Shown here: positions 22,569 through 32,789 of the stretch, one piece after another | How positions within the stretch are numbered: position 1 is the stretch's first letter | Layout: each line of letters begins with the position of its first letter | From: Chitinispirillaceae bacterium | GTDB lineage: Bacteria > Fibrobacterota > Chitinivibrionia > Chitinivibrionales > Chitinispirillaceae | DNA: 33,625 nt | Reading direction: 5' to 3' | Assembly (NCBI GenBank): GCA_016929595.1 | Contig: JAFGIN010000146.1 | Location: 1-33,625 of the forward strand | Translations under genes and position numbers: made by a program | The notes under the pieces: model-generated | The model's database searches: none | What the model saw: only the letters and a program-made list of their open reading frames with translations | Told to the model about the DNA's origin: nothing

Positions 22569-24704
22569 CTATTGCAAACCCAGTAACTTTCCAATCTGAA
22601 AAACGATCGTTGCTGTAGAAAATGCAAAAATAAGCTGATAACAGACGCTGAATGCCGACCACTTCCAGTTCTTCAGCTCACGGATGATAGTGATAAATGC
22701 GACGATGCACGGGGTGTAGAGAAGAACAAAAAGCATGAATGCAAAAGCAGACAATGGAGTAAAATGCTCCTTGAGTTTTGCTCGCAGCACATCACTTTCT
22801 TCAGCTCCTTCTGTACCGGCAGAGTATAATACCCCCATCGATCCGACAACTATCTCTTTGGCGACAAAACCGGTAATAAGTGATACTGCCCCGCGCCAGT
22901 CGGTTCCAAATGGACGAACGAGAGGTTCGAATATGTGCCCGACTCTTCCAATGTAAGACTGTTCCAACAGTTTTGCACTCTTTTCTGTCTGAAGTTCAGC
23001 AATTCTTGCTTCCCGTTGTTCACTGCTGAGCTGCCCGGTAGTATTGATCGATGCAATTTTCGAATCGTACTCCTTTTCAATCGCTGGAGACTCAGGATAG
23101 CTTCCTGCCCACCAGAGAATGACCGAGAAAAGAAGCACAACACCCCCCATTTTCTGAAGGTAATGTTCCGCTTTGTGCCACATGTGAATAAGAACACTCC
23201 TTACTGTTGGTAAACGGTAGGGAGGAAGTTCCATCACAAAAGGGTTGTCCGCGCAGCCCTTGAACAGCGTATGCTTGAAAAGTATCGCCATAAGAATAAA
23301 TGCGCCGAAACTGAATACTACTTGAAAAAGAAAAACAACGTTTCCTGCATGTTTTGGGAAAAATGTGCCTGCAAAGAGTACAAACACTGGTAAACGTGCA
23401 GAACAGGAAATCAGTGGCGTCAGAAGAATCGTTTTGATTCGGTCGTTACGGGATTCAAGAGTGCGCGCTGCCATTATTGCCGGTACACTGCAGCCCAGGC
23501 CCATGATCATCGGTATAAAACTTTTTCCATGTAAACCGATACGGTGCATGAGACGATCCATGATAAATGCAGCACGTGCCATATATCCGGTATCCTCCAT
23601 GATCGATATACCAAAGAAGAGAATCATGATGTTTGGTAGAAATATGATAACACCTCCTACCCCGGCAATGATTCCGTCAACGATAACATCGCGAATTACA
23701 CCTGCGGGCAGTGTTGATGACGCAAATTCCTGGAGCCATCCCACTAGTGATTCAATCCATCCCATCGGATATTCACCGAGTTTGAATGTAGCCTGAAACA
23801 GTAACCACATGAAAATAATAAATATCGGATAAGCCCAGAACCGGTGAGTCAAAACTACATCGATTTGATCTGAGACCTCGATCCTGTGCTGCTTACCCTT
23901 TACAATTGTTTCCCGGGCAATACCTGCAATATAACCATACCTGCTCTCGGCAATCAGGCTTGCAGGATCGTCACCAAGTCTCTTTGTGATCAGAATGTCA
24001 GATTCATTGCGTTGTGCACGTATCAATGGTGCACCAGGCTGATTTTCGATAATTTTTTCGATGGTTTTGTCTCTCTCAAAGAGTTTGGTTGCATACCAGC
24101 GATGCTGAGAGAGGTCGGGAAAATGCTCTTTTAATGATTTTTCTACAGCAGTGATGCTTTGTTCAAGCTCTTCGGGCATTCTGACCGAAAGAATGCTTAC
24201 TTCCTTATTATTGTTTGCAGCCTGTTCTATAGCTTTGAGCATCAACTGGTCGATTCCGGTTCGATTTCGGGCGCTTGTTGTCACTGCTGTAACGTCAAGC
24301 AATGCCTGAAGCTGTTTGAGATCGATGGAGTCTCCTTTTGCGGTAACTTCATCCCACATGTTAAGCGCCAGCACCGGACGGATTCCCATCTCCATTAGCT
24401 GTACCGTCAGATACAGATGACGTTCGAGATTGGTTGCATCAATGACATTTATGACAACGTCAGGTTTTTCTTTGACAAGATAATCGCGGGCTACCTGTTC
24501 CTCTTCTGAAAAGGCACTTAAAGAATAGGTTCCGGGAAGGTCGATCACTGTAACTCTGGTTCCATTGACAGAAGTAATTCCTTCCTTGATTTCCACAGTA
24601 ACCCCGCCCCAGTTACCAACTTTCTGCATTGCTCCTGTTATAGCATTGAAAAGGCTGGTTTTCCCGGAGTTGGGGTTTCCGGCGAGTGCGATTCTGATAC
24701 TCAT
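22569..24704 (-). CDS. feoB: FeoB ferrous iron transporter
   Basis: 711 residues from the ATG at 24704, chosen because AGGGGG lies 7 bases upstream; a GTG two codons earlier is in frame. The N-terminal G domain has GNPNSGKT (residues 9-16), VIDLPGTYSLS and LNMWDE; its helical regulatory region follows. The membrane part has the paired Gate domains, seen in FFGISIMEDTGYMARAAFIMDRLM, GLGCSVPAIMAARTLESRNDR and the second FVAKEIVVGSMGVLY. It takes up ferrous iron across the inner membrane under GTP control. The FeoA function is not a separate gene here but a domain of the upstream regulator. The gene lies 129 bp after that regulator on the same strand, with a palindromic operator candidate in between. 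Confidence 0.97.
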   Translation of the reverse strand: MSIRIALAGNPNSGKTSLFNAITGAMQKVGNWGGVTVEIKEGITSVNGTRVTVIDLPGTYSLSAFSEEEQVARDYLVKEKPDVVINVIDATNLERHLYLTVQLMEMGIRPVLALNMWDEVTAKGDSIDLKQLQALLDVTAVTTSARNRTGIDQLMLKAIEQAANNNKEVSILSVRMPEELEQSITAVEKSLKEHFPDLSQHRWYATKLFERDKTIEKIIENQPGAPLIRAQRNESDILITKRLGDDPASLIAESRYGYIAGIARETIVKGKQHRIEVSDQIDVVLTHRFWAYPIFIIFMWLLFQATFKLGEYPMGWIESLVGWLQEFASSTLPAGVIRDVIVDGIIAGVGGVIIFLPNIMILFFGISIMEDTGYMARAAFIMDRLMHRIGLHGKSFIPMIMGLGCSVPAIMAARTLESRNDRIKTILLTPLISCSARLPVFVLFAGTFFPKHAGNVVFLFQVVFSFGAFILMAILFKHTLFKGCADNPFVMELPPYRLPTVRSVLIHMWHKAEHYLQKMGGVVLLFSVILWWAGSYPESPAIEKEYDSKIASINTTGQLSSEQREARIAELQTEKSAKLLEQSYIGRVGHIFEPLVRPFGTDWRGAVSLITGFVAKEIVVGSMGVLYSAGTEGAEESDVLRAKLKEHFTPLSAFAFMLFVLLYTPCIVAFITIIRELKNWKWSAFSVCYQLIFAFSTATIVFQIGKLLGLQ

Positions 24705-24802
24705 CAGCACACCCCCTGCGCAGAGATTCGGGAGTTCCGGGTATGTTTTACCATCATCATGTTCCTCAATTTATATAATTTATTTCGAGCTAATGAACAT
24801 AG

Positions 24803-24833: not shown

Positions 24834-25565
24834 TTATTCAGGTTCGACCAGTATGTTAGCAGCTTCTTCACGACGCAGAGAGAGATTGTAATTTCTTACC
24901 TTTACCTCAATCGGATCGTCCAGTGGAGCTGCTTTAACAACTGTTATTTTCTGACCGTTTGTTATGCCCATTTCGTAAAGACGACGTTTAAGTTCACCCT
25001 TTCCCAGTATCCGGGTTATAAAACCGGATTTTCCGGGCTTGATAAGGTTGAGATCACTCTGTGCGCTATCCTTTCCATTTTTTGATCCGGATCCGTTCTG
25101 ACTGTAAAGGCAGTTTCTTTCGCAGAGTATTCCATCTTCAGATTGTGCCATTTTTGTTTTCAACTTTTGAGCTAATGCCTTATCTTCACGTATTGTTTGA
25201 AGTAAACTGGTAATTTTCTGACATAGTCGGGTGCTCATTCCATGTTCCATTTTGCAGGCCGCATCCTCAGCTTCGGTTTCCTGCAACCCGAACACTTCAA
25301 CAAAAGCATCCTTGAGGATGTGATGACGTTTATTGATACAATGGGCAATTCTCTTGCCCTCTTCAGTCAGAGTAATGAAAGAACGGGGTTCATAATTAAT
25401 CAGACCTTTGTCTGCCAGAGAGCGTAAAGCTACCGTTACTGTCGGTCGTTTAACATTAAGTTTATCAGCAATCTCCATTGAACGGGCAACCTTGCTCGTG
25501 GCGATAATGTTAAAAATTGCCTCAAGGTAATCTTCAAGTGTTGATGTGAGCGTATCTGCTGTCAT
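24834..25565 (-). CDS. DtxR/MntR-family metal-dependent repressor with C-terminal FeoA domain
   Basis: 243 residues from the ATG at 25565. The frame also opens 13 codons upstream, but that start lies at the predicted transcription start and operator, so the shorter form is preferred. Order: winged helix (EDYLEAIFNIIATSK ... VKRPTVTVALRSLADKGLI), dimerisation/metal domain (HHILKDAFVEVFGL, CKMEHGMS with Cys104, Glu107, His108), a flexible linker of about 40 residues rich in Ser, Gly and Asn containing CERNC, and a FeoA/SH3-like domain from about residue 175 (RRLYEMGITNGQKITVVKAAPLDDPIEVKV, then LSLRREEAANILVE). Asp12 at the Met10 position resembles MntR, but Cys104 resembles DtxR. It should repress feoB and itself when metal-loaded. 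Metal identity is not decidable from sequence. Confidence 0.93.
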   Translation of the reverse strand: MTADTLTSTLEDYLEAIFNIIATSKVARSMEIADKLNVKRPTVTVALRSLADKGLINYEPRSFITLTEEGKRIAHCINKRHHILKDAFVEVFGLQETEAEDAACKMEHGMSTRLCQKITSLLQTIREDKALAQKLKTKMAQSEDGILCERNCLYSQNGSGSKNGKDSAQSDLNLIKPGKSGFITRILGKGELKRRLYEMGITNGQKITVVKAAPLDDPIEVKVRNYNLSLRREEAANILVEPE

Positions 25566-25588
25566 AATACTGCCTGAAAAAGGTGTGC

Positions 25589-25636
25589 TAGAACGTTCTA
25601 ACATAATAAGATACTATGTTTTAACTGAGATTGCAA
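25589..25636 (-). promoter_or_regulatory. Promoter and palindromic operator of the DtxR-FeoA gene
   Basis: On the minus strand TTGCAA (25631-25636) and TATCTT (25608-25613) are 17 bases apart, followed by the perfect 12-bp palindrome TAGAACGTTCTA (25589-25600), which would cover the transcription start. It is placed 23 bases before the preferred ATG. The palindrome shares TAGA-N4-TCTAA with the site before feoB. Each promoter hexamer matches consensus at 4 of 6. Confidence 0.55.
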
Positions 25637-26621: not shown

Positions 26622-27986
26622 ATGGATCTTCAACAGTTACGGCAGGCAGTTGAAATTTCGCCGGATAATGCACCGCTGCTGGTTCTTCTGGGAAATGCCT
26701 GTATCGAGGCATGGAATCTTGAGGAGGCACAGAATATTTTCCAGCGGGCGATAACTCTTGACTCGTCAATTACTGATGCCCATATCGGACTTGCTGCTGT
26801 ATTTTTGCGCAAGGGAATGTTAGACGATGCTTTCAAGGTGTTCGGGACTATCGACACTTCAGGATCACTGTCAGGCAGAGGGCATTTGGTGTACGCTCAG
26901 ATTCTTGTAAAGCTTGGACGGACTGATGACGCAGAGAAACATTATGATGAAGCTCTTCGTATGGATTCACAGACAAAGGATGAAGAGATCGAACGTGCTC
27001 TGTCAAAAACCGGCAGACACAAGTCCGCTGATACCGATGCTCCTTTAAAAAACTACTCAATGACCCATGAAACAAATGATACCGATATCAATCATTTACT
27101 CTCATCCATCGAAGAAAAGAGCAGGGCTGAAAATACTATTACATTTAAAGATGTTGGTGGGATGACTGAGATAAAAGAGCAGATTCGTATGAAAATTCTT
27201 TATCCAATTCAGAATCAGTCACTTTTTGAAGCGTATGGTAAAAAAGCGGGTGGCGGCGTACTGCTATATGGACCACCGGGATGTGGCAAGACACTGATCA
27301 GCAGGGCCGTGGCAGGTGAAATAAAAGCATCATTTTTCAATATCGGAATTCATGAAATCCTGGATATGTATATTGGTAACAGCGAAAAAAATCTTCATGA
27401 ACTTTTTGAAAACGCCCGTTCGAAGGTCCCTTCGGTACTGTTTGTTGATGAGGTCGATGCACTGGCATCAGATCGTAACTATCTCAAAATGAGTGCAGGG
27501 CGAACACTTATCAATCAATTCCTCTCTGAACTCGATGGAGTGACGACTGATAACAGTAACCTTCTTGTAATGGCAGCAACCAATGCTCCCTGGCATGTGG
27601 ATCCAGCGTTTAAAAGACCGGGGCGTTTTGACAGAGTAATTTTTGTACCACCGCCAGATCTGGAAGCACGTAAAGCGATACTTGAAATCCATCTTAAAAA
27701 CAAACCATCAGAAAAACTTGATATAAGTTTGATCGCACAAAAAACTGACGGGTTTTCTGGTGCTGATATACGTGCACTCATCGATACCGCATCAGAAATT
27801 GTTCTTGAAAAGGCTATGAAAAAAGGTACGGTGATACCTCTGACAAATGCAGATATTGTTTCGGCAATGAAAAAAACAAAGCAATCGATAAAAGCCTGGT
27901 TTGAAAGTGCTAAAAATTATGCCCTGTTTGCTAACCAGGGCGGGTTCTATGATGATCTTCTCCCATATGTAGGAATAAAAAAATGA
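26622..27986 (+). CDS. TPR-AAA ATPase, single AAA module without protease domain
   Basis: 454 residues. Residues 1-130 hold about three TPR units (LLVLLGNACIEAWNLEEAQNI, HIGLAAVFLRKGMLDDAFKV, YAQILVKLGRTDDAEKHYDEAL). After a charged linker, an AAA module starts near TFKDVGGMTEIKEQI: Walker A GPPGCGKT (217-224), pore loop around DMYIGNSEKN (Tyr250), Walker B VLFVDE (272-277), sensor 1 AATN, and second-region-of-homology RPGRFDR (332-338). The helical lid follows (DGFSGADIRALIDTA). It belongs to the classical AAA clade with p97, FtsH and spastin, and has no HEXXH or second ring. It likely remodels or unfolds proteins recruited by the TPRs. The stop overlaps the start of the TPR-membrane gene. 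Confidence 0.95.
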   Translation: MDLQQLRQAVEISPDNAPLLVLLGNACIEAWNLEEAQNIFQRAITLDSSITDAHIGLAAVFLRKGMLDDAFKVFGTIDTSGSLSGRGHLVYAQILVKLGRTDDAEKHYDEALRMDSQTKDEEIERALSKTGRHKSADTDAPLKNYSMTHETNDTDINHLLSSIEEKSRAENTITFKDVGGMTEIKEQIRMKILYPIQNQSLFEAYGKKAGGGVLLYGPPGCGKTLISRAVAGEIKASFFNIGIHEILDMYIGNSEKNLHELFENARSKVPSVLFVDEVDALASDRNYLKMSAGRTLINQFLSELDGVTTDNSNLLVMAATNAPWHVDPAFKRPGRFDRVIFVPPPDLEARKAILEIHLKNKPSEKLDISLIAQKTDGFSGADIRALIDTASEIVLEKAMKKGTVIPLTNADIVSAMKKTKQSIKAWFESAKNYALFANQGGFYDDLLPYVGIKK

Positions 27987-29251
27987 ATTACCATGAACAG
28001 TCTGAAGAAATTCTTCAGCGTGCACTCATTCTACTGAATCAACATAACTATGAACAGGCCAGGGTGTTTGCAGAACAGGCTGCAGCACAAAACCCCGATA
28101 ACTCCCGTTCGCTCTACGTTCTTGCACTTGTGTACTCACACTTTGAAAAGGAGCTTCCAAAGGCTCTTGATACAATAGAGAGGGCAGTCTCTCTTGATCC
28201 TATGGAAAGCACGTATCTGTGCCTGAAAGCATTTATTTTCAGTAAAATCGGTCGTTACGCAGCTGCGTTAACGACGGCAGATTCAGCCTTGTCAATAAGT
28301 CCGGATTCATCAGAGTGTTTTCTGGAAAAGGGGCGGGCTCTTATGGGTATGCAGCGATGGCGTGATGCGGAAACAGCGTTTCATGATGCATTGGCGATAG
28401 ACCCGGATGATATCAACGCTGGAAATATGTTGACAATCGTTCTTCAGATGCAACAGCGGGGTGAAGAATCAAACTTGCACGCGGAATCGATGCTTCAGAA
28501 AGATCCGCAGAATGCATATTCACATGCCAATGCCGGATGGACCGCATTACGGGAAAGTAATCTTATCAAAGCTCGTGAACACTTCCTTGAAGCACTTCGG
28601 CTGGAATCGGGGCTTGAGAGTGCCCGCCTGGGAATAATAGAAACATTCAAAGCTCAGTCGCCACTGTATCGCGGATATTTGAAATATGTCTTTTTTATGA
28701 GCCGCTTCAGTGGCAAAAACGGCATTATGATCATCGTGGGGTTTTATATCGCATACCGCATCCTCTATCGCATACTCTCGGGTGCCAATCAGTTTCTTGC
28801 GACAACACTCGCTATTGCTTACCTGACATTCGCATTATGGAGCTGGGTTGCGCGGGGGGTGGGAAATTTTATGCTGCTGATGAATTCGTTTGCACGTAGT
28901 GCTTTGACAAAAGCAGAAAAGATCGAGGCCGCGGTTGTCGGTGGTAATGTGATTGTCGGGCTGCCGTTATTGATTTCGGGGATCACATTTGATATACCGG
29001 CACTGTTCATGGGCGGGGTTTCGATGATCTGGAGTGCGTTCCCATTTTCGATAAGTTTTACTAATGAGAATAAGACAGGGCGGTTTGTTTATGGCGCTGC
29101 CGGTGTAACAATTTTGATCGCTGGTTTGTTTATTGTTTTAGCAGGAACAAACATAGTCCAGTTTAAGCCGCCTCAGGCGGTCATTTCTCTTGTGTATATC
29201 ATCTCGATCGGTGTGATCTGGATGGGTTCTTTCGGTGTGTTGCGTAAATAG
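27983..29251 (+). CDS. TPR-membrane protein partner of the AAA ATPase
   Basis: 422 residues. Residues 1-225 contain about six TPR units (ALILLNQHNYEQARVFAEQAA, YVLALVYSHFEKELPKALDTI, LKAFIFSKIGRYAAALTTADSAL, LEKGRALMGMQRWRDAETAF, NAGWTALRESNLIKAREHFLEAL). After SPLYRGYLKYVFFMSRFSGK come six predicted membrane segments (about 247-266, 273-300, 318-336, 341-360, 369-388, 398-420). The protein has no signal peptide, so the TPRs should be cytoplasmic, facing the ATPase. The ATGA overlap with the AAA gene indicates coupled synthesis and a joint role. I know of similar TPR-plus-membrane proteins beside AAA genes in other bacteria but not of a studied function. Confidence 0.92.
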   Translation: MNYHEQSEEILQRALILLNQHNYEQARVFAEQAAAQNPDNSRSLYVLALVYSHFEKELPKALDTIERAVSLDPMESTYLCLKAFIFSKIGRYAAALTTADSALSISPDSSECFLEKGRALMGMQRWRDAETAFHDALAIDPDDINAGNMLTIVLQMQQRGEESNLHAESMLQKDPQNAYSHANAGWTALRESNLIKAREHFLEALRLESGLESARLGIIETFKAQSPLYRGYLKYVFFMSRFSGKNGIMIIVGFYIAYRILYRILSGANQFLATTLAIAYLTFALWSWVARGVGNFMLLMNSFARSALTKAEKIEAAVVGGNVIVGLPLLISGITFDIPALFMGGVSMIWSAFPFSISFTNENKTGRFVYGAAGVTILIAGLFIVLAGTNIVQFKPPQAVISLVYIISIGVIWMGSFGVLRK

Positions 29252-29264
29252 GTCGATCTATGTA

Positions 29265-30695
29265 TCAATTGTTTTTTATCCGGCAAAAATTCCCTGTACT
29301 GTCAAATTGCACCGCGGTCTGCCTGAATGCTTCAGAAGACAATTGATTGAGCAGGCTGACAGCATTTTTTTGAGTGTCAATCATCGGAACGCCATCACTA
29401 TCAAAAACAAGAGGGGTAACAGCCGCTTTTGTGCAGACACCGTTTGATGCGAGTTGTACGCGTAAAATCGCACTATACTTCAGAGATCCTTCTGTGGAGA
29501 ATGATTTGTAGCTGCAGAAGTTGCCAAGACTGTAGGCTATAAGACGTCCTTTATAGATTTCCATTGCCCTGAGTACATGCGGTCCATGTCCAAGAACAAG
29601 ATCGGCTCCGGCATCAACCGCAGTGCGGGCAAATTGAAATGAATTTCCCCTGTTCTCTCCATGGTAAAATTCAACGGTATCCCTTATTTTTAAAGCATTA
29701 TTACCTTCTGCACCACCGTGAAAAGAGACGATGACAATGTCGTTTGACTTGTCAAGATGATGGATTAACTTTTTAACATTGTCGGTATTTTGAATAACAA
29801 ACGCGGCTTCCTGGGTTGAGTAGGCAACCATACAGATTTTCAATCCGTTTTTCTCCCAGAACGCAATCTTTCCTGTGCGTCCGCTATGAAGAATTCCGCT
29901 GGAATCGAGTGCCCCCATGGTCTGATAAATACCATGAGTCTTAAAATCGTTTGCGTGATTATTTGCAGTGCTTAAAACAGAAAAACCAACCTCTGCAAGT
30001 GCTTTTGAGTAGGAGGTGGGTACTCTGAAAATAAATATTCCACCACCTTTTTTCTGTGCTTTCATGCTTCCACCACTATTACTGAGTACTGTTTCAAGAT
30101 TACCAAAAGTAATATCTGCCTTTAAATGGGTGTTGACATTTTTAAAGATGGACAAAGGTCCATTGGGTGGAAGTGCCGCATGCTCAACTGGCCAGGCTCG
30201 TCCCATCTGTATATCACCAACTGCTACGACATCTATAGTACGAGCACCCGATGGAAGGGTGTCGATCTGTTTTGATGAAAAATGTTCCAGAGTATCAATA
30301 AGTTTCTGAGCTGCGAGACGATCCTCTGCCATTCTGAGATTTATTGCCAGATCTGGCATCTTTGGATTAAGAATCTTAATGCGGTTCCAGAGTGTATACA
30401 CGTTCTGCCAGTTTTCTGTAAGATAATAAGCCCATCCGGCTTCCCACAAGGCCGGAATATACGATGAATCTGCAATTACTGCGCTGTCGAGATAGGGAAG
30501 TGCTTTTAAAGTGTTCTTGGTTTTAAGATAGGGGATAGCAAGGTTAACCATCTGTTTTGCCTTAACAGTATTACGAGACGACGATACTTTTTGAGGACTT
30601 TTCTGCTGGGCGAACGTTGAAAAAAGAGGAAGCAGTATAACGTAAATAGTAATTATAGCTTTTTTTACGGGATTTTTTTTTAAGATAGAGGGCAT
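29265..30695 (-). CDS. CapA/PGA_cap metallophosphatase-like secreted protein with TPR-like N-terminus
   Basis: 476 residues. A signal peptide (to about SFTFA, residue 29) precedes a helical TPR-like region (about 42-135; ALPYLDSAVIADSSYIPALWEAGWAYY). From residue 153 it follows the CapA fold: VVAVGDIQMG (Asp161), FGNLETVLS (Asn199, Glu201), LSTANNHANDF (Asn246, His247), VSFHGGAEGN (His326) and VLGHGPHVLRAMEIYKGRLIAYSLGNF (His370, His373). CapA relatives act in capsule or poly-gamma-glutamate export or as metallophosphatases; the substrate here is unknown and no pgs genes are present. It is convergent with the TPR-membrane gene, 13 bp between stops. No clear Shine-Dalgarno precedes the ATG. 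Confidence 0.93.
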   Translation of the reverse strand: MPSILKKNPVKKAIITIYVILLPLFSTFAQQKSPQKVSSSRNTVKAKQMVNLAIPYLKTKNTLKALPYLDSAVIADSSYIPALWEAGWAYYLTENWQNVYTLWNRIKILNPKMPDLAINLRMAEDRLAAQKLIDTLEHFSSKQIDTLPSGARTIDVVAVGDIQMGRAWPVEHAALPPNGPLSIFKNVNTHLKADITFGNLETVLSNSGGSMKAQKKGGGIFIFRVPTSYSKALAEVGFSVLSTANNHANDFKTHGIYQTMGALDSSGILHSGRTGKIAFWEKNGLKICMVAYSTQEAAFVIQNTDNVKKLIHHLDKSNDIVIVSFHGGAEGNNALKIRDTVEFYHGENRGNSFQFARTAVDAGADLVLGHGPHVLRAMEIYKGRLIAYSLGNFCSYKSFSTEGSLKYSAILRVQLASNGVCTKAAVTPLVFDSDGVPMIDTQKNAVSLLNQLSSEAFRQTAVQFDSTGNFCRIKNN

Positions 30696-31217
30696 TTTCG
30701 ACTTGTCTCACAATTCTTTTTTCATGGAACATAACGGTTATTTGCTGATAATGGCGTGCTAAGGAACATATAGATAAATATAACACTCCGGAGGCTTGGG
30801 AGGAATGAGGAATGAATGGGGGAGTGGGGACAAGAAGCTATAAGATAGAGGGTGGAAGAGAGTGGTGATACCTGAACATCTTCTTCATATACGCCCCGAA
30901 TGGGGTTGGAATTAACAGCCTGAGCCGGATTTTACCGGAGGCTCGGGTGGGCGGCATAAACGCAAAGAATTTGGTAGTGTAGTGATTTAATCAAATCCCT
31001 TTGTGCGCGCGCTATAAATCTTTCATCCTTTAACTCCATAAATTGTTCGCATCATATTTGAAAGTCGAATAAAAAACATCAAATTCCAAATGACACATCA
31101 TAATAATATACGTTGAATTTTAATACCACATATTCTTCTAAACAGCTTTTTTTTACTCATACTCATATTTTATACGTATATTATAAATAAATTATAACAA
31201 ATAAAGTGTCTATACTT
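30696..31217. other. Divergent spacer with GC-rich structured segment
   Basis: 522 bp without a gene. A purine-rich stretch (30788-30860) resembles the tract at 25661. At 30888-30965 a GC-rich island has two hairpins: CCCC-GAAT-GGGG, and GAGCC closing with GGCTC around CCGG-containing arms, followed by GGTGGGCGGC. The remaining 200 bases before the protease gene are very AT-rich with several TATA-like words. The structured island could be a leader element, small RNA or dispersed repeat; it does not match a riboswitch class I know. Confidence 0.55.
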
Positions 31218-32789
31218 ATGATTTCAAGGAATAAAGTAGTTAGATCGATCTTCTTTTTACTGCAAGTATTCATAATCTCTATATCTGCTGAGCTCACCGG
31301 ACCGACTACAAACCTGCCCCCCTCTATTGACAATTCAATCCACAAGGCATTCCGTCCAATCTTCAATCAAGCTGGAACCAGTTGTTCACAGGCCACTGCA
31401 GTTGGATATATCTACACTTATGAAATCAATTGCCAAAGAGGGTTATCAGCAGATATTCCTCAAAATCAATACCCCTATGATTTTATCTTTAATTTTCTTA
31501 ACAGGGGTAAGAGTGCACAAAGTACTGACCCCAGGATGGGATGGGAGTTAATACGGGATATCGGCATACCTTCTGTGACTGACTATGGTGGATTTGGGCT
31601 TGGAAAGTATTCCCAATGGATTAGTGGCTACCCTATATATTTAAAAGGGATGGAAAACCGTCTCAAAGAGGTTTTTAACATAAAAATTTGCAGCACAAAA
31701 GATCTGCTTACCACAAAACAATGGCTTTTTGATCATGGTAATGGTTCTACAACAGGCGGTTGTCTTGAGTTTTCAGGATCTGTTCACGATATGCAAATAG
31801 TGACACTTCCAGATTCCTCTCTCGATTACAATAAAGCTATCGTAAAGTTCGGAAAGACTGGTGGCCATACCATGGCTATTGTTGGCTATAACGATTCTGT
31901 CCGGTATGACTATAACAATGATGGTAGATTTACCAACGACATCGATATAAACAATGACGGGATTGTTGATATTAAAGATTGGGAGATCGGGGCGATGCTC
32001 ATGGTAAACAGTTGGGGGCTGTCCTGGGGCGATAATGGAAGAGCATACGTAATGTACAAACTGTTACTCGACAGTGCTTCACATGGTGGAATATGGGGAC
32101 CCTATCTCGGAGGAATCAGGTTGTACGATGAACCAATCATCAAACCTTCTATTGCTATTAAATTTTCAATTTCACATCCAGAAAGAAGCAAAATAAAAAT
32201 AGTTGCAGGTAGTTCAACAGATACTGTGTCGTTGACAAAAGCCAAAACAATATCTCTGTCATCAATTATTTATTTTTCTGGAGGTCCCTTCCCAATGCAG
32301 GGAATAAATAATGAACCGCTTGAATTTGGTCTGGATTGCAGTAAGTTACTTATTGATCCCGAAGGCTCAACCAGAGCTTTTTATCTTAGTGTCTACGCAG
32401 GAGACAAAAGAGGTATATTGCATAAAATTTCCTTAATGGATTATACCAGTACCCCATTTACTGAATACCTTTACCCACATGAAAATGTCATTCTTGATAG
32501 TGGAACAACTTACTTTAAAATAATCAGACCAGAATCAGCACAATCTATTTCTAAACGTTCTAAACCTCCAGCAACCCATAATATTTCTTCCAGTTTTCAG
32601 ATTAAAAATGGAATCATTACTGTTTTAAATTACAATAATTTCATGAAAGTTGTCTCTCTTGATGGTAAAACTGTCATGTCATTATTACATGTCAAAAACA
32701 AATCAACAATTGATATTTCCAGATTCAAAAATGGTATCTATTTTTTAGTGTATCAGCATGGATGTCTGAAATTGCCTGTAAAAATGTAG
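31218..32789 (+). CDS. Secreted papain-like (C1A) cysteine protease with calcium-loop insert and type IX-like sorting domain
   Basis: 523 residues from the ATG at 31218 (a GTG four codons upstream is in frame). A signal peptide ends near residue 24. The catalytic residues are Gln51 and Cys56 in FNQAGTSCSQATAVGY, His217 in GGHTMAIVGY, and Asn264 in VNSWGLSWGDNG. There is no long propeptide, with the core starting close to residue 40. Between His and Asn lies an insert DYNNDGRFTNDIDINNDG plus IVDIKDW, with two EF-hand/dockerin-like loops. Residues about 310-450 form an unassigned beta-rich region, and the last 65-70 (FQIKNGIITV ... SLDGKTV ... IDISRFKNGIYFLVYQ ... LKLPVKM) resemble a Por sorting domain. 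It is probably exported and cell-surface or secreted. Confidence 0.9.
   Translation: MISRNKVVRSIFFLLQVFIISISAELTGPTTNLPPSIDNSIHKAFRPIFNQAGTSCSQATAVGYIYTYEINCQRGLSADIPQNQYPYDFIFNFLNRGKSAQSTDPRMGWELIRDIGIPSVTDYGGFGLGKYSQWISGYPIYLKGMENRLKEVFNIKICSTKDLLTTKQWLFDHGNGSTTGGCLEFSGSVHDMQIVTLPDSSLDYNKAIVKFGKTGGHTMAIVGYNDSVRYDYNNDGRFTNDIDINNDGIVDIKDWEIGAMLMVNSWGLSWGDNGRAYVMYKLLLDSASHGGIWGPYLGGIRLYDEPIIKPSIAIKFSISHPERSKIKIVAGSSTDTVSLTKAKTISLSSIIYFSGGPFPMQGINNEPLEFGLDCSKLLIDPEGSTRAFYLSVYAGDKRGILHKISLMDYTSTPFTEYLYPHENVILDSGTTYFKIIRPESAQSISKRSKPPATHNISSSFQIKNGIITVLNYNNFMKVVSLDGKTVMSLLHVKNKSTIDISRFKNGIYFLVYQHGCLKLPVKM

Follow-up and report, generated by a model that had tools for sequence, protein, structure and literature searches.

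The comparisons reported here give good support to the conclusion, drawn from sequence, that a gene encoding a TPR-AAA ATPase and an adjoining gene encoding a TPR-membrane protein form a conserved, co-inherited functional pair. The anatomy of both proteins and the pairing of their genes are directly established by sequence and model; with moderate confidence, the pair may further be viewed as a membrane-docked AAA unfoldase machine, the cytosolic ring of which would be tethered to the inner membrane through the TPR protein. Both genes lie in the window, i.e. the whole stretch of 33,625 nucleotides analysed here, from a Chitinispirillaceae bacterium (GenBank assembly GCA_016929595.1, contig JAFGIN010000146.1, forward strand). 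The coordinates of the two open reading frames and their ATGA overlap, given in a preliminary description of this DNA, were borne out in the sequence (Table 1). The same description knew of no function for the pair and, indeed, none is assigned in Pfam, NCBIfam, PADLOC or the literature searched; no paper on the AAA/TPR-membrane pair was found in a literature search that mostly excluded subscription journals and preprints.

Conservation and distribution of the gene pair

In the phylum samples, 63 of 67 loci have the partner directly next to the AAA gene, reversed order included: 9/9 in the window's own phylum, 4/4 of the Verrucomicrobiota loci examined, 7/8 in Bacteroidota, 32/34 in Planctomycetota and 11/12 in Chloroflexota. 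The orthologues of two genes first described as coupled from the window are thus not usually separated. At least 586 relatives carrying the C-terminal tail of the AAA protein were detected by a scan for this element, and among the 80 loci retained from it, mostly from Verrucomicrobiota and Bacteroidota, adjacency was found in 73 of 78. In 32 of 84 homologous pairs the two genes overlap by exactly four bases, while control loci of FtsH-type AAA genes yielded no partner-like open reading frame (0/36). An arrangement that recurs in most loci across phyla, against none of the 36 controls, is beyond chance. The pairwise distances of the AAA and partner proteins also correlate (r = 0.87, 45 loci), a correlation explicable by shared ancestry alone.

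Within the window's phylum (168 genomes), a profile search returned nine genomes at E values of 2e-135 or better, all other matches (2e-68 or worse) being FtsH-type and other AAA proteins. The family AAA gene is present in 18 of 241 sampled genomes of Verrucomicrobiota, 8 of 345 of Bacteroidota, 34 of 244 of Planctomycetota and 12 of 251 of Chloroflexota; taken with the window's own phylum, this gives prevalences of 2-14% across five phyla. The pair is also found on Actinomycetota plasmids, where the first gene is annotated just as 'ATP-binding protein' or 'AAA family ATPase' and the second as 'tetratricopeptide repeat protein' or 'hypothetical protein'. The window protein belongs to this family: its A6/A1 profile score is far above that of other AAA proteins, it carries the W[FM]x[TS]A[KR]N tail and it has an adjacent TPR-membrane gene.

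In an AAA-core tree covering the family, FtsH-type proteins and CDC48 copies (Vps4, katanin and further classical AAA groups lie beyond its scope), the family is monophyletic; its grouping has 100/100 support, and a long branch separates it from the FtsH-type and CDC48 copies. Copies from the window's phylum are scattered on this tree, at least five changes being forced by well supported branches, and that of the window sits among Verrucomicrobiota copies. Such scattered placement, together with the retained adjacency, indicates that the two genes have been transferred together from one phylum to another. That the window's contig is a contaminant was rejected on the similarity of its tetranucleotide profile to the rest of its genome (r of 0.90-0.95 with five other contigs and 0.85 with a sixth); since the composition is not foreign, an old transfer is likeliest.

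Several variants of the arrangement were observed. In about ten loci a single AAA gene is accompanied by two or three TPR-membrane partners in tandem, with extra partners following the first in L097, L126, L151, L160, L165, L242, L243, L246, L248, L249 and L253, some of these calls resting on open reading frames with shadow extensions in GC-rich DNA. In a reversed-order sub-clade (L235 and L268-L272 in Planctomycetota, L236 in Chloroflexota) the partner lies upstream of the AAA gene and is itself preceded by a third gene, the product of which (~165-200 amino acids) has several hydrophobic segments and a RPW...GG...N.RRLG motif, and for which no Pfam family was found. Four Verrucomicrobiota loci contain AAA paralogues without an adjacent partner (in L232 as far as the contig reaches, its end lying just past the gene), the main family copy being also present in three of these four genomes, and a few AAA orthologues likewise have no partner next to them. 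In Planctomycetales bacterium 10988 (L161, 8216-8746), a different membrane protein of 176 amino acids, encoded after the AAA gene with a one-base overlap, replaces the TPR partner; to judge by its sequence (E about 0.01), kinship with the small third-gene product of the reversed-order sub-clade is improbable.

Architecture of the two proteins

The AAA protein has a single AAA domain (Pfam AAA, E = 3e-40, in addition to AAA_lid_3 and TPR matches), and the features by which a classical AAA ATPase is recognized, namely Walker A and B, sensor 1 (Asn321), arginine fingers and the AAA lid, are all present, as is an SGAD motif at residues 379-382. Across 46 aligned homologues, no variation was seen at those Walker, sensor-1 and arginine-finger positions that were checked, and all 46 have Trp, Tyr or Phe as the aromatic residue of the pore loop. 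The Trp of a PW dipeptide following sensor 1 is also invariant in this alignment and resembles a motif of the meiotic clade. By fold, the core is nearest to p97 D2, spastin and Vps4 (VIA-align Z about 26-28). The N-terminal TPR region was modelled with pLDDT values mostly above 90, and its first repeat is the most conserved, with Leu6, Ala9, Pro14, Asn16 and Leu19 invariant in the family alignment; at the other end of the protein, Trp426, Phe427, Ala430, Asn432 and Tyr433 of the tail are invariant among the 46 homologues. Neither HExxH nor peptidase M41 was detected by motif scan and Pfam, and no transmembrane helix was found. The preliminary portrayal of a single classical AAA domain with intact Walker, pore-loop and arginine-finger motifs, fused to TPRs and devoid of a protease, therefore holds in Pfam and motif scans.

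The partner was modelled by AlphaFold2 with a mean pLDDT of 93 and a pTM of 0.89, and its TPRs are matched by Pfam (E = 8e-19). Its six membrane segments were recovered as previously described, while the earlier count of about six TPRs gives way to the seven TPR-like helix pairs of the model. According to the positive-inside distribution of loop charges, both termini are cytosolic, whether the charges are those of the window protein or averages over the family, and the TPRs are predicted to face the cytosol, on the same side as the would-be AAA ring. The most conserved stretch in the family alignment, residues 181-240, comprises the last TPRs and the segment just before the membrane, and is a plausible candidate for a docking or substrate site. 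No Pfam family was found for the six-helix membrane domain, and the PDB structure matches of the model were taken up by its TPR part, the membrane-domain fold being barely probed by them. The partner is shorter in Chloroflexota and in the three-gene sub-clade, with only about two membrane segments, which indicates that the six-helix domain is not a requirement.

Table 1. Coordinates of the gene pair, of its features and of variant loci (window positions unless a locus is named).
Feature	Position	Strand	Details and basis
TPR-AAA ATPase gene	26622..27986	+	454 aa; ORF call, Pfam AAA + AAA_lid_3 + TPR, tree clade
N-terminal TPR region, residues 1-115	26622..26966	+	Pfam TPR matches; helical pairs in model
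AAA core and lid, residues 172-401	27135..27824	+	Pfam; structural comparison
Walker A GPPGCGKT, residues 217-224	27270..27293	+	Motif scan; G/K/T invariant in 46 homologues
Pore loop 1 MYIG, residues 249-252	27366..27377	+	Family form M[WY][ILV]G
Walker B VLFVDE, residues 272-277	27435..27452	+	Motif scan, homologue alignment
Arginine fingers R332 and R335 (RPGR)	27615..27626	+	Motif scan, homologue alignment
C-terminal helix plus tail specific to the family, W[FM]x[TS]A[KR]NY...N..G.YDD	27882..27983	+	Specific probe in relatives scan
ATGA stop/start overlap, AAA gene to partner gene	27983..27986	+	Sequence
TPR-membrane partner gene	27983..29251	+	422 aa; ORF call, AlphaFold2 model
Seven TPR helix pairs (14 helices), residues 3-239, predicted cytosolic	27989..28699	+	AlphaFold2 model
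Six-helix membrane domain (six long C-terminal helices), residues 244-416	28712..29230	+	AlphaFold2 model
TM2-TM3 loop, conserved, positively charged, predicted cytosolic	28853..28921	+	Family motif N.....DR.AR.AL...E
Reversed-order three-gene loci	L235:4996-7865; L236:4092-6757; L268-L272		
Partnerless AAA paralogues	L231:6112-7500; L232:4511-7093; L233:5841-7280; L234:6076-7533		L232 contig ends just past gene

Proposed mechanism and relation to known systems

As judged from sequence and model, the AAA protein appears to be equipped to thread polypeptides with nothing to cleave them, and its neighbour would supply an anchor and cytosolic adaptor repeats. The AAA protein would assemble as a hexameric ring, its short N-terminal TPR docking at the cytosolic surface of the inner membrane on the partner's TPR solenoid, and the aromatic pore loop would pull on membrane-bound or membrane-proximal proteins. 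Clients might thereby be extracted or unfolded, or complexes taken apart, without degradation. The partner may be the anchor, a substrate adaptor or both, in which case the extra tandem partners would be alternative adaptors for one AAA ring. The pairing, the cross-phylum transfer with adjacency, the invariant catalytic residues, the missing protease and the topology of the partner all support a docked machine, as do the core fold, the conserved membrane-proximal region of the partner, the tandem partners, the membrane protein added in the sub-clade and the lack of conserved genes outside the module. On the other hand, the AAA paralogues and the few orthologues without an adjacent partner count against it, as does the reduction of the partner to about two membrane segments in Chloroflexota and the three-gene sub-clade, and, TPRs being ubiquitous, a repeat common to both proteins is by itself weak evidence for docking. 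Taken further, and only tentatively, the family could represent a bacterial protease-free membrane-protein extraction system with interchangeable TPR-membrane adaptors and sometimes a third small subunit, spread horizontally and of an origin independent of both Msp1 and the peroxisomal export module.

Membrane-protein quality control in bacteria is usually ascribed to FtsH, and proteins extracted by FtsH are degraded by it. The family resembles FtsH in its classical AAA core and its link to the membrane; membership was rejected given the lack of peptidase M41, HExxH and a transmembrane helix, as well as the separate, fully supported clade. If the proposed mechanism is correct, a widespread protease-free AAA ring with its own membrane adaptor would constitute a non-destructive counterpart to FtsH, akin to Msp1 or PEX1/PEX6. 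Experiments have a clear two-gene target in the conserved pairing, cultured genera that carry it including Streptomyces, Hymenobacter and Roseibacillus.

PEX1/PEX6, which extracts proteins from the membrane, is brought to the peroxisome through a separate membrane anchor (PMC6862443). The pair described here, recognized by gene pairing, would share with it the combination of a protease-free AAA protein and a separate helical membrane anchor, which for PEX1/PEX6 is PEX26/PEX15. However, PEX1/PEX6 are eukaryotic hetero-hexamers that contain both D1 and D2 rings as well as special N-domains, in contrast to one AAA domain with TPRs, and PEX26/PEX15 is tail-anchored by one transmembrane segment, compared with about two to six in the partner. 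Membrane proteins are also extracted by Msp1/ATAD1, a single protease-free AAA ring (PMC9273213). Here the likeness extends to the single classical AAA domain, the lack of a protease, the C-terminal helix and the aromatic pore loop, although the family pore loop has one aromatic residue followed mostly by Ile, Leu or Val, unlike that of Msp1/ATAD1, and its membrane anchor is a second protein. In ATAD1/Msp1 an N-terminal membrane anchor is part of the AAA protein itself; the N-terminus of the family protein is a TPR region with no anchor of its own, and membership of this group was rejected. The D2 domain of p97/Cdc48 offers the closest solved structures by both sequence and fold, but a single AAA domain, a TPR region in place of the Cdc48 N-domain and a score of 214.9 bits against a cut-off of 802.65 led to the rejection of Cdc48/p97 membership, in line with the separate clade from the CDC48 copies. 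The likeness to the meiotic-clade proteins Vps4 and spastin is by fold only, the members of that clade lying outside the tree.

Alternative explanations

The partner might instead be the client, self-assembling at the membrane and being remodelled or recycled by the AAA ring in the manner of NSF/alpha-SNAP or Vps4. The near-obligate pairing and co-inheritance would suit such a relationship, as would the proximity of the core fold to Vps4 and spastin and the invariant, meiotic-clade-like tryptophan; yet AAA paralogues exist without a neighbouring partner, and a membrane domain ranging from about two to six helices is more variable than would be expected of a structural polymer. We regard this explanation as unlikely.

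The genomic neighbourhood bears on two further alternatives. No conserved third gene was found in the main family beyond lineage synteny, any one Pfam family occurs at most three times among 96 neighbour genes and, with no conserved genes outside it, the AAA/partner module looks self-contained. The surroundings resemble neither a defence island nor a larger operon around the pair; the neighbours are mutually unrelated. The pair could serve to assemble or activate a particular membrane enzyme or transporter whose genes lie at another site, the partner acting as receptor; with no conserved neighbours, such a client would have to be unlinked. The patchy distribution in every sampled phylum and the absence of a protease agree with this, but no client candidate was found and unit transfer between distant phyla suggests either self-sufficiency or universal clients, so that we consider it rather improbable. 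A defence or stress module with an ATPase sensor and a membrane effector is very doubtful: two horizontally moved genes, with a low prevalence per phylum and some copies on Actinomycetota plasmids, and the cross-match of the AAA protein to IetA models would fit it, but the IetA match lies far under the NCBIfam cut-off (115.5 versus 510 bits), PADLOC gave single cross-hits only among the 96 unrelated neighbours, and several Verrucomicrobiota loci share syntenic neighbours resembling housekeeping genes. IetS is a subtilisin-like protease. IetAS, too, consists of two genes, one of them for a related AAA protein, and membership was rejected on the score above and on the partner, which is a TPR-membrane protein with no IetS protease present.

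Elsewhere in the window, a DtxR-type iron-dependent repressor fused to a FeoA domain is encoded at 24834-25604 and adjoined by feoB at 22569-24710. A PGA_cap-type capsule synthesis protein (29265-30695) is convergent with the TPR-AAA/TPR-membrane pair, and positions 31206-32789 encode a protein of 527 amino acids that is probably secreted, with a weak match to a C-terminal Por secretion tail.
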